Positions 12,247 through 15,058 of a stretch of DNA of 64,000 nucleotides are shown piece by piece. This DNA comes from Rhizobacter sp. Root1221. GTDB lineage: Bacteria; Pseudomonadota; Gammaproteobacteria; Burkholderiales; Burkholderiaceae_C. Position numbers and translations under genes: made by a program. Each line of letters starts with the position of its first letter. Position 1 is the stretch's first letter. The notes beneath the pieces are model-generated. The model was given only the letters and a program-made list of their open reading frames with translations, ran no database searches and had not been told where the DNA came from. Location of the stretch: the NCBI RefSeq assembly GCF_001425785.1, contig NZ_LMDI01000012.1, positions 187,566 to 251,565 of the forward strand, given 5' to 3'.

Positions 12247-13722
12247 ATGATCTCCCGCGAACCCACCCTCGAACGTCTGGCGGTCGCCAGGTCCCTGCTG
12301 CTCGAACCGTTCGGTCTTTCCGACGCGACCGTGGCCAAGGCCCTGAACACCATCGCGGCCCACCGCATCGACGACGCGGACCTGTACTTCCAGTACACCC
12401 GCAGCGAAGGCTGGAGCCTCGAGGAAGGCATCGTGAAGTCCGGCAGCTTCGGCATCGACCAGGGGGTCGGTGTGCGGGCGGTGGCCGGTGAAAAGACCGC
12501 GTTCGCGTACTCCGACGACATCTCCGAAGCCGCGCTGCTCGATGCCGCCCGCACCGTGCGCACCATCGCTGCCGCGGGCCAGAGCCTGTCGGTCAAGGTG
12601 CCGTCGGCGCCCAAGGTGGCCGGCAGCCGGGTGCTGTACGCCCCCACCGACCCCATCGCCACGCTCGACAGCTCGCAGAAGGTGGCCTTGCTGGAGCGGG
12701 TCGAGAAACTCGCCCGCGCGAAAGACCCGCGCGTGAAGCAGGTGATGGCCGGCGTGGCCGCCGAATACGACGTGGTGCTGATCGCCCGCGCCGACGGCAC
12801 GCTGGCGGCCGACGTGCGCCCGCTCGTTCGCCTGTCCGTCACCGTGATCGCCGAACAGACCATCGCGGGCGAAGTGCGCCGCGAGATCGGCTCGGGCGGT
12901 GGCGGTGGCCGCTTCGGCCTCGGCTACTTCCAGCAAGACATCATCGAGCAATACGTCAACGACGCGGTCAACGCAGCGCTCACCAACCTCGAAGCGCGCC
13001 CGGCCAAGGCCGGCGAGATGAGCGTGGTGCTCGGCCCGGGCTGGCCCGGTGTGCTGCTGCACGAGGCCATCGGCCACGGCCTCGAGGGCGACTTCAACCG
13101 CAAGGGCTCCAGCGCGTTCAGTGGCCGCATCGGCCAGCGTGTGGCGGCCAAGGGGGTCACCGTGCTCGACGACGGCACCCTGCCCGACCGCCGCGGTTCG
13201 CTCAACGTGGACGACGAAGGCAACGCCAGCCAGCGCAACGTGCTGATCGAGGACGGCATCCTGAAGGGGTACATCCAGGACGCCATGAACGCCCGCCTGA
13301 TGGGCGTGGCCCCCACCGGCAACGGCCGGCGCGAAAGCTACGCGGCCGTGCCCATGCCCCGCATGACCAACACCTACATGCTCGGCGGCGACAAGACGAA
13401 GGAAGAGATCATCGCCGGCCTGAAGCGCGGCCTCTACGCCACCAACTTCGGCGGCGGCCAGGTCGACATCACCAGCGGCAAGTTCGTGTTTTCCGCGTCG
13501 GAAGCCTTCTGGGTCGAAAACGGCAAGATCCAGTACCCGGTCAAGGGCGCCACCATCATCGGCAACGGCCCCGACGCGCTGACCCGTGTCAGCATGATCG
13601 GCAACGACATGAAACTCGACACCGGCGTGGGCGTGTGTGGCAAGGAAGGCCAGAGCGTCCCGGTGGGCGTGGGCCAGCCCACGCTGCGCATCGACCGCCT
13701 CACCGTGGGCGGCACCGCTTGA
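12247..13722 (+). CDS. tldD: Metalloprotease TldD
   Basis: TldD, with TldE/PmbA, forms a zinc protease that matures peptides such as microcin B17 and degrades CcdA. The 491 aa product is the usual size. The metal-binding motif HEAIGHGLEGDF lies near residue 272. The C-terminal segment NGRRESYAAVPMPRMTNTYM and the region VLIEDGILKGYIQDAMNARLMG are characteristic. No tldE lies in this window. A TACAAT box seven bases upstream suggests a leaderless message. Transcription may continue into the aroG leader region. Confidence 0.94.
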   Translation: MISREPTLERLAVARSLLLEPFGLSDATVAKALNTIAAHRIDDADLYFQYTRSEGWSLEEGIVKSGSFGIDQGVGVRAVAGEKTAFAYSDDISEAALLDAARTVRTIAAAGQSLSVKVPSAPKVAGSRVLYAPTDPIATLDSSQKVALLERVEKLARAKDPRVKQVMAGVAAEYDVVLIARADGTLAADVRPLVRLSVTVIAEQTIAGEVRREIGSGGGGGRFGLGYFQQDIIEQYVNDAVNAALTNLEARPAKAGEMSVVLGPGWPGVLLHEAIGHGLEGDFNRKGSSAFSGRIGQRVAAKGVTVLDDGTLPDRRGSLNVDDEGNASQRNVLIEDGILKGYIQDAMNARLMGVAPTGNGRRESYAAVPMPRMTNTYMLGGDKTKEEIIAGLKRGLYATNFGGGQVDITSGKFVFSASEAFWVENGKIQYPVKGATIIGNGPDALTRVSMIGNDMKLDTGVGVCGKEGQSVPVGVGQPTLRIDRLTVGGTA

Positions 13723-13749
13723 CGGCGCGCCCAGGCCCCGTGCTACATT
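13719..13749 (+). promoter_or_regulatory. Candidate promoter of the aroG leader
   Basis: TTGACG (13719-13724, overlapping the tldD stop) and TACATT (13744-13749) are separated by 19 bases, slightly long. A transcript would begin near 13756, just before the leader-peptide ATG at 13757. Confidence 0.45.
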
Positions 13750-13756
13750 AGCTCCC

Positions 13757-13831
13757 ATGCGTCTCGTTGCGTCCTTCTTCGGCTTTTACTTTTGGATCTT
13801 GCCCACACCCGGCGGAGAGAGAAGCGCGTAG
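13757..13831 (+). CDS. Aromatic-rich leader peptide of aroG (24 aa)
   Basis: A 24-codon frame from ATG 13757 to TAG 13829-13831 with the core FFGFYFW at codons 7-13 (13775-13795): four Phe, one Tyr and one Trp in seven residues. This is the hallmark of an attenuator leader peptide whose translation senses charged aromatic tRNAs. It sits just upstream of a strong intrinsic terminator and the gene for DAHP synthase, the entry enzyme of aromatic amino-acid synthesis. No Shine-Dalgarno precedes it; a -10-like box seven bases upstream suggests it may be read as a leaderless message. The peptide itself probably has no function beyond regulation. Confidence 0.75.
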   Translation: MRLVASFFGFYFWILPTPGGERSA

Positions 13832-13885
13832 CCCGAAGAAACGCACCAGACTCAAAAAACCGCCGGATCCACGGCGGTTTTTTTT
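13809..13885 (+). terminator. Transcription attenuator with competing hairpins before aroG
   Basis: The terminator is CCGCCG (13860-13865), loop GATCCA, CGGCGG (13872-13877), extended by flanking A and T runs and followed by eight T (13878-13885). CCGGCGG at 13809-13815, inside the end of the leader frame, is the exact complement of CCGCCGG at 13860-13866 and could form an antiterminator. A ribosome stalled on the Phe/Tyr/Trp codons would leave 13809-13815 free; one that reaches the stop at 13831 would cover it and let the terminator form. Confidence 0.78.
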
Positions 13886-13939
13886 CGCCCGAACATCCCG
13901 ACGCCATTCGACGTACTTCCCCTCAAGGAGCCCTTTCCG

Positions 13940-15058
13940 ATGAATGCCAATGCCACCAGCGCCGCCGAAGGATGGACGGCCCCAGCCGACCGCACCGGCC
14001 AGACCGACGACGAACGCATCCTGAACGTCACCCCGTTGCCGCCGCCGGAGCACCTGGTCCGCTTCTTCCCGATCCGCGGCACGCCGGCCGAGACGCTGAT
14101 CGCCGGCACGCGCCAGAACATCAAGAACATCATCCAGGGCCGTGACGACCGGCTGCTGGTGATCATGGGCCCCTGCTCCATCCACGACCCGGTGGCCGCC
14201 ATCGAGTACGCCCGCCGCCTGCTGGTCGAGCGCAAGAAGTACGAAGGCACGCTCGAGATCGTGATGCGCGTCTACTTCGAGAAACCGCGCACCACCGTCG
14301 GCTGGAAGGGCCTCATCAACGACCCCTACCTCGACGAGAGCTACAAGATCGACGAAGGCCTGCGCATCGCCCGCCAGCTGCTCACCGAGATCAACAAGCT
14401 CGGCATGCCTGCCGGCAGCGAGTTCCTCGACGTGATCTCGCCGCAGTACATCGGCGACCTGATCTCCTGGGGCGCCATCGGTGCGCGCACCACCGAAAGC
14501 CAGGTGCACCGCGAACTGTCGTCCGGCCTGTCGGCCCCCATCGGGTTCAAGAACGGCACCGACGGCAACATCCGCATCGCCACCGATGCCATCCAGGCGG
14601 CGGCCCGGTCGCACCACTTCCTGTCCGTCCACAAGAACGGCCAGGTCGCCATCGTCGAGACCGCCGGCAACCCTGACTGCCACGTGATCCTGCGCGGCGG
14701 CAAGACGCCGAACTACGACGCGGTGCACGTGGAAGCCGCCTGCAAGGACCTCGAGGCCGCGAAGCTGCAGCCGTCGCTGATGGTGGACTGCTCGCACGCC
14801 AACAGCAGCAAGCAGCACATGCGCCAGATCGACGTGGCCCGCGACATCGCCACGCAGGTGGGCAGTGGTTCGCGCCGCATCTTCGGCGTGATGGTCGAGA
14901 GCCACCTGAATGGCGGCGCGCAGAAGTTCAGCGCCGGCAAGGACGACCCGGCCCAGCTGGCCTACGGCCAGAGCATCACCGATGCCTGCATCGGCTGGGA
15001 CGATTCGCTCGGGGTGCTGCAGGTGCTGAGCGAGGCGGTTCAGGCCCGGCGCGGCTGA
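13940..15058 (+). CDS. aroG: 3-deoxy-7-phosphoheptulonate (DAHP) synthase, class I
   Basis: DAHP synthase condenses phosphoenolpyruvate and erythrose-4-phosphate, the first step of the shikimate pathway. The 372 aa protein belongs to the AroF/G/H (type I alpha) group: LLVIMGPCSIHDPVAAIEYA (PEP/metal Cys), YFEKPRTTVGWKGLINDP, IGARTTESQVHRELSSGLSAPIGFKNGT and MVDCSHANSSKQ are all present. AAGGAG at 13925-13930 precedes the ATG. The N-terminal extension carries the allosteric region; which aromatic acid inhibits it is not clear by eye. Expression is apparently governed by the upstream attenuator. Confidence 0.95.
   Translation: MNANATSAAEGWTAPADRTGQTDDERILNVTPLPPPEHLVRFFPIRGTPAETLIAGTRQNIKNIIQGRDDRLLVIMGPCSIHDPVAAIEYARRLLVERKKYEGTLEIVMRVYFEKPRTTVGWKGLINDPYLDESYKIDEGLRIARQLLTEINKLGMPAGSEFLDVISPQYIGDLISWGAIGARTTESQVHRELSSGLSAPIGFKNGTDGNIRIATDAIQAAARSHHFLSVHKNGQVAIVETAGNPDCHVILRGGKTPNYDAVHVEAACKDLEAAKLQPSLMVDCSHANSSKQHMRQIDVARDIATQVGSGSRRIFGVMVESHLNGGAQKFSAGKDDPAQLAYGQSITDACIGWDDSLGVLQVLSEAVQARRG

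Follow-up and report, generated by a model that had tools for sequence, protein, structure and literature searches.

A probable ribosome-mediated transcription attenuator with mixed aromatic codons upstream of a DAHP synthase gene in Rhizobacter and other Burkholderiales

In enteric bacteria, DAHP synthase genes, which stand at the entry to the shikimate pathway, are under the control of the TyrR and TrpR repressors. The region upstream of the DAHP synthase gene (aroG) of Rhizobacter sp. Root1221, contained in a window of 64,000 nucleotides (the whole stretch of DNA that was analyzed), raises the question of whether a cis-acting leader RNA governs such a gene in Burkholderiales and, if so, which amino acids it senses. 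A sequence-only reading of the window had proposed an attenuator at which ribosome stalling on Phe, Tyr, and Trp codons would act as a three-amino-acid sensor.

Anatomy of the tldD-aroG intergenic region

The 217 bases between tldD and the DAHP synthase gene hold a complete attenuator anatomy, all of it on the forward strand. The upstream gene is assigned to tldD by the NF008006 model (643.5 bits) and ends with a stop codon at 13720-13722. The downstream gene (13940-15058), which would be the regulated one, codes for a DAHP synthase of the AroFGH family (TIGR00034; 528.4 bits against a cut-off of 173.2) and is preceded by the Shine-Dalgarno site AAGGAG at 13925-13930. Because its product falls under the cut-off of the AroG equivalog model (539.6 against 568 bits) and over that of the Trp-sensitive AroH subfamily model (497 against 463 bits), the allosteric inhibitor of the enzyme is not readable from these models. 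The closest named relative, as judged by the DAHP synthase gene, is Rhizobacter sp. Root1238, with 88% protein identity.

The leader open reading frame (ORF), MRLVASFFGFYFWILPTPGGERSA, comprises 24 sense codons and extends from an ATG at 13757 to a TAG stop at 13829-13831, with a 5' end that is probably leaderless or nearly so. Its core is a run of control codons, F F G F Y F W, at 13775-13795. The antiterminator strand CCGGCGG (region 2; 13809-13815) is the exact reverse complement of CCGCCGG at 13860-13866 (region 3), which forms the 5' side of an intrinsic terminator at 13854-13885 recognizable in the sequence, the RNA fold, and the alignment of relatives. This terminator (regions 3 and 4) has the form A6-CCGCCG-GATCCA-CGGCGG-T8, with its arms at 13860-13865 and 13872-13877, its T run at 13878-13885, and adjacent A residues at 13854-13859 that lengthen the stem. 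Both the 24-codon frame with an FFGFYFW core and the seven-base antiterminator facing a terminator with eight T's had been described in the sequence-only reading, and they are found base for base where it placed them. A simple terminator scan reported a minus-strand match at this site and left the plus-strand terminator unlisted; the RNA fold shows the stem. The 134-nucleotide (nt) leader RNA folds with a z score of -3.36, and none of 200 shuffles was equally stable. When the leader is folded without translation, CCGAAGAA (13833-13840) is predicted to pair with TTCTTCGG (13775-13782). This long helix was rejected as a general feature, as a run of at least 7 such pairs occurs in only 39 of 139 relatives.

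Conservation of the leader ORF

Genome searches, a related-locus search, and hand-picked regions (for which identity refers to the part of the DAHP synthase gene that was fetched) provided 227 loci and, from these, 220 distinct DAHP synthase upstream regions. We scored a leader as present when a nine-codon stretch of a frame possessing a start codon contained at least five F, Y, or W residues. By this rule, an aromatic-rich short ORF occupies the equivalent place in 167 of the 220 regions, compared with 10 of 1,100 shuffled sequences and 4 of 220 reverse strands, so that the conservation of aromatic codons across Burkholderiales that an attenuator should display is indeed observed. The leader is present in 95 of 105 regions at a DAHP synthase identity of at least 74%, in 34 of 39 at 66 to 74%, and in 38 of 76 below 66%; in other families of the order, it was found in 12 of 39 regions, one of them doubtful (L153). 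A terminator recognized by the rule of our script accompanies 139 of the 167 leaders. Examples include MRFASFFFAYFWFSHRTGGGEASA (locus L117) and MQARSAFYFYFWFSVPGGREAIA (locus L008), while the Burkholderia, Caballeronia, and Paraburkholderia loci carry MSAKFYFYFFWHLKPLADREG or close variants and those of Massilia, Rugamonas, and Janthinobacterium have aromatic runs devoid of Trp, such as MTCFFFTGYFYFSNSNPKAVE (L106). The leaders show a weak preference for TTT over TTC (475:296 in leaders and 1109:1058 in the bodies of the DAHP synthase genes; odds 1.53).

The rule is unmet in 53 of the 220 regions. Part of this deficit is a failure of the detector, which misses weaker leaders such as that of L035, with four aromatic codons in eight, and part is probably loss. 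Loss is the probable explanation for the Polynucleobacter (L055, L058, L059) and Cupriavidus (L056, L067) loci and for L014, L015, and L017 (74 to 76% identity), in all of which the detector found no aromatic leader. On a protein tree of DAHP synthases in which 119 of 143 rows have a leader, presence and absence change at least 19 times, indicating that the history of the leader is not one simple gain.

Antiterminator pairing and compensatory changes

Among the 139 relatives with both leader and terminator, region 2 forms at least 6 Watson-Crick pairs with the 5' arm of its own terminator in 117, as against about 10% after shuffling of the segment and 25% after random synonymous recoding. Fewer than 6 pairs are seen in the other 22, where some of the terminators look wrongly picked. 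Region 2 reads CCGGCGG in most relatives; those with a CCGCCAG terminator arm have CTGGCGG instead. In 130 of 139 cases, the GGCGG core of region 2 falls within the leader ORF, and it is read in frames 0, 2, and 1 in 77, 47, and 6 of them, yielding peptides as unlike as ..TGGGEASA, ..PAEERSA, and ..PRRLRGDD. That the core is read in all three frames points to selection on the RNA rather than on the peptide.

For the two bases beside the core, the joint states are CC/GG/CC in 71 relatives, CT/AG/CT in 17, and others in 38 (n = 126). The tree of 143 DAHP synthases requires at least 10 changes of the arm base. In seven independent pairs of relatives that differ in this base, the 3' arm follows in all seven, and region 2, on average, follows in 4.6, is unchanged in 2.4, and takes the opposite state in 0.0 (median sign test P, 0.06). 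Conserved pairing and compensatory change, which had both been put forward as marks of a genuine device, are thus present, the latter fully in the 3' arm and in somewhat more than half of the pairs in region 2.

Folding weakly supports a textbook 1:2 protector hairpin. The predicted pairing of region 2 with upstream sequence has a mean probability of 0.61, against 0.54 after synonymous recoding (higher than recoded in 72 of 117 relatives), and RNAalifold supports only four 1:2-type pairs. In Burkholderia-type leaders, among them L081 and L095, codons 2 to 4 (TCCGCCA; peptide MSAK) repeat the 5' arm of the terminator and are predicted to base-pair with region 2. This segment is a possible region 1, a role that would explain the constant MSAK start.

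Promoter element and start of the leader

An extended -10 element, TGCTACATT (13741-13749), stands 7 nt before the leader ATG and is conserved in nearer relatives, defined here by a DAHP synthase identity of at least 70%. When sought 5 to 12 nt before the ATG, such an element (TGnTAnnnT, mostly TGCTACATT) was found in 102 of 121 nearer relatives, at a distance of 6 to 8 nt in 100 of the 102; at other ATGs of the same regions, it occurs at 6 to 8 nt in 0 of 569. A Shine-Dalgarno-like word precedes the leader ATG in 1 of 121 nearer relatives versus 97 of 132 aroG starts. Given the closeness of the extended -10 to the ATG and the lack of a Shine-Dalgarno site, translation of the leader is probably leaderless in the nearer group, with the putative transcription start placed by the position of the -10 element. 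A possible -35 box, TTGACG (13719-13724), overlaps the tldD stop codon and is separated from the -10 hexamer by a long spacer of 19 nt; it is weak, since of the 102 relatives that have the extended -10, only 26 show TTGA at the corresponding place. In the distant group, TATA-like boxes lie 22 to 47 nt before the ATG in 25 of 46 leaders and Shine-Dalgarno-like words in 4 of 46, so that a short 5' untranslated region (UTR) lacking a Shine-Dalgarno site appears likelier there.

Covariance model searches

An alignment of 26 leaders, in which the CCGCC and GGCGG of the terminator are invariant, was used to build a covariance model. In the Rhizobacter genome, the aroG leader scores 91.2 bits (E = 1.8e-17), with the next best match at an E value of 0.5 when 150 of 4,422 first-look candidates were scored. 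At least 45 of 150 Burkholderiales genomes have a match at an E value of 0.01 or less, this being a lower bound because the scan used stricter filters, with 22 candidates scored per genome listed. Beyond the Rhizobacter genome, the 29 best matches (E of 3.6e-5 or less) are each followed immediately by a DAHP synthase gene, and of the 24 weaker matches listed (E of 3.6e-5 to 0.01), the four that were checked by place (G144, G104, G012, and G060) adjoin DAHP synthase.

These results bear on two readings in which the leader peptide is a chance frame or secondary. Lying directly after tldD, the terminator would stop tldD transcripts as well, and it could be held that it merely ends that transcript and that the ORF is a chance reading frame. 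Such a terminator accounts neither for an aromatic ORF and a region 2 conserved far above controls nor for a -10 element placed on the leader ATG, and the 29 best matches of the model elsewhere precede DAHP synthase. With the leader in 167 of 220 regions versus 10 of 1,100 shuffles and the pairing in 117 of 139, we rejected this candidate, which we regard as extremely improbable. The nearly invariant sequence of the terminator stem might instead speak for a leader that binds a protein or metabolite, as in a riboswitch or a TRAP-like system, with the peptide being secondary. Outside the terminator, however, conserved structure amounts to four pairs only, and what is conserved is the codon run, at a constant spacing from region 2. 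In addition, scans of two aroG loci brought no Rfam family to its gathering score, and the matches in the window are subthreshold, which makes a binding leader highly improbable. As no Rfam family reaches its threshold here, the element goes unannotated.

Predicted effect of ribosome stalling

Which ribosome positions would permit antitermination was predicted with a folding model in which the front edge of the ribosome is assumed to lie 13 nt past the first base of the A-site codon. In the nearer group, the probability of pairing between regions 2 and 3 in the RNA transcribed up to that moment, P(2:3), is 0.94 to 0.99 for stalls 36 to 15 nt before region 2, 0.62 at 12 nt, 0.09 at 9 nt, and 0 beyond; the corresponding values in the distant group are 0.84 to 0.98, 0.77, 0.16, and 0. 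For the Root1221 leader, P(2:3) is 0.99 for F7 to W13 at assumed edges of 11, 13, and 15 nt, each control codon as a stall site thus leaving the antiterminator free in the model. It drops between I14 and P16 and is 0 from T17 to the stop codon, as it is with no ribosome on the leader. The aromatic run ends a median of 13 nt before the paired stretch (5th to 95th percentile, 9 to 16), its last codon starting 15 nt before GGCGG. With the last aromatic codon starting at this median of 13 nt ahead of the pairing, the control codons fill the usable stall window to its last place.

In the mechanism that we propose, RNA polymerase would start at, or 1 to 2 bases from, the leader ATG, as the position of the -10 element suggests, and a ribosome would translate the 24-codon leader. 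When tRNAs charged with Phe, Tyr, and Trp are ample, it would reach the stop codon and cover or pass region 2 (13809-13815), upon which the terminator (13860-13885) would form and give a short RNA without aroG. A stall at a core codon (13775-13795) would leave region 2 free just ahead of the ribosome; region 3 (13860-13866) would pair with it before region 4 has been transcribed, letting the polymerase continue into aroG. If the leader is not translated, the predicted self-fold would make region 2 unavailable, and the terminator would likewise form. Conserved aromatic codons, conserved antiterminator pairing, and compensatory changes all favor the attenuator first proposed from the letters of the window, and we consider it very probable that a ribosome-mediated transcription attenuator controls the DAHP synthase gene.

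A hydrophobic, aromatic peptide of fairly constant length would also suit a TnaC-like arrest of the nascent chain, responding to a free aromatic amino acid rather than to uncharged tRNA. The variation of F, Y, and their order among relatives would hardly be tolerable for an arrest peptide, and tRNA starvation is the signal that suits a biosynthetic gene; arrest of this kind is therefore very unlikely.

Which amino acids are sensed

In the model, any core codon as a stall site antiterminates, so that a three-input reading follows from the anatomy, with charging levels in the cell deciding among the inputs. In their composition, the leaders of the nearer group average 4.6 Phe, 1.5 Tyr, and 1.0 Trp, and all three residues occur in 113 of 121 of them versus 21 of 46 distant leaders. 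Phe and Tyr interchange freely at many positions. Trp starts 15 to 18 nt before GGCGG in 102 of 111 measured leaders with a W in the run. To judge from these sequences, sensing of Phe, Tyr, and Trp all at once is plausible.

The same attenuator could nevertheless be, in physiological terms, a Phe sensor to which Tyr is a near-synonym and the single Trp codon incidental. Consistent with this, F makes up 20% of the residues in nearer leaders, Y 6.7%, and W 4.2%; 25 of 46 distant leaders have no Trp; and AroR of Corynebacterium glutamicum, with its FYF core, is described as responding to Phe and not to Tyr in the account given in PMC11802643. The retention of all three residues in most nearer leaders argues against it, as does the position of W, at which the model gives full antitermination. 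We hold a Phe sensor to be a distinct possibility, although one with somewhat less than an even chance. The three-input reading, in its full form, describes a leaderless OR gate for Phe, Tyr, or Trp starvation at shikimate entry that would be ancestral in a large part of Burkholderiales and take the place of the enteric TyrR and TrpR repressors; we advance it tentatively, as likewise somewhat short of an even chance.

Relation to known attenuators

At the level of sequence features, the aroG leader would work like pheL/trpL-type attenuators: it has a run of end-product codons in a short ORF, an intrinsic terminator between this ORF and the structural gene, and an antiterminator that is exclusive with the terminator and that, as judged by sequence and folding, would be exposed by a stalled ribosome. 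Of these attenuators, the Escherichia coli pheA leader (RF01859, Phe_leader) shares its anatomy and aromatic run, and positions 1-125 of that model align at full length with 13756-13887; at 19.2 bits (E = 1.3), however, the match falls below the gathering score of 55, and membership in the family was rejected. The pheA leader serves a different gene, and pheL is not known to contain Trp. Codons for several end products of a branched pathway in one leader are known from the E. coli ilv leader, which differs in concerning branched-chain amino acids and another operon.

Attenuation of DAHP synthase genes has precedents as well, compared here by description. The C. glutamicum aroR-aroF system, reported as ribosome-mediated attenuation (Neshat et al. 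2014, as cited in PMC11802643 and PMC4046766), likewise has a DAHP synthase gene preceded by a leader peptide that contains aromatic codons, but it belongs to an actinobacterium, its core is Phe-Tyr-Phe with Trp unmentioned in these accounts, and Tyr is reported to be without effect. For aroF of E. coli and Shewanella, also a DAHP synthase gene, attenuation was proposed by Camakaris et al. 1980 (cited in PMC2659441 and PMC8632094), and PMC2659441 lists it as an "Attenuator sensing tyr-tRNA"; as described, it differs in concerning a Tyr-sensitive isozyme and one amino acid. Attenuation by a leader peptide has also been suggested in Acholeplasma: there and in environmental sequences (24 representatives), the uORFC-13-1 motif combines an upstream ORF with a Phe codon or codons and a terminator before aroF, but its description in PMC8632094 gives it a ribosome-binding site and at least one Phe, with no Phe-Tyr-Trp run. 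The attenuator RNA of Sinorhizobium meliloti trpL (rnTrpL) likewise starts with the ATG of a leader ORF and is leaderless, although, according to PMC7298713, it lies upstream of trpE(G), contains Trp only, and is alphaproteobacterial.

No description of the Burkholderiales aroG leader was found among the literature matches listed, although supplementary tables may hold it (PMC5688073, with 82 short 5' UTRs of Burkholderia cenocepacia in Table S3, and PMC2965389). To the extent of these searches, three things are new: the occurrence of the element in Burkholderiales, the conservation of its Phe-Tyr-Trp run, and the placing of a promoter element on the leader ATG. The attenuator would explain how one cis-acting RNA could set aromatic-pathway flux in a large, mostly soil-, water-, and plant-associated group, and its likely leaderless start would tie attenuation to leaderless-type initiation. 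Its mixed codon run offers a natural test of whether three end products can be sensed simultaneously in this way.

Other aromatic genes of the genome

Within up to 450 nt upstream of pheA, trpE, a second PF04715 gene, a second DAHP synthase gene, and kdsA of the Rhizobacter genome, where the third PF00793 match is KdsA, we found no aromatic leader with at least four F, Y, or W residues in nine. Ahead of the trpE gene (L228/L231; G000:C12, upstream of 374899) lies a short ORF, MFIARKQTKGSHDRGAWPWRGRTTLV; TGCTACACT stands 6 nt upstream of the ATG of this ORF, which is not followed by a T run. Of the 40 genomes searched, 38 have a trpE gene, and a W-x-W core (mostly RGAWPWR) is present in all 30 trpE loci fetched, that of the Rhizobacter genome included. 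An extended -10 element precedes an ATG in 28 of the 30 loci, and two trpE genes scanned gave no Rfam match. In 28 aligned trpE leaders, the bases CCGGGGAGCcTGGCccTGGCG are strongly conserved, and the short ORF looks like a Trp leader peptide that would work without an intrinsic terminator.
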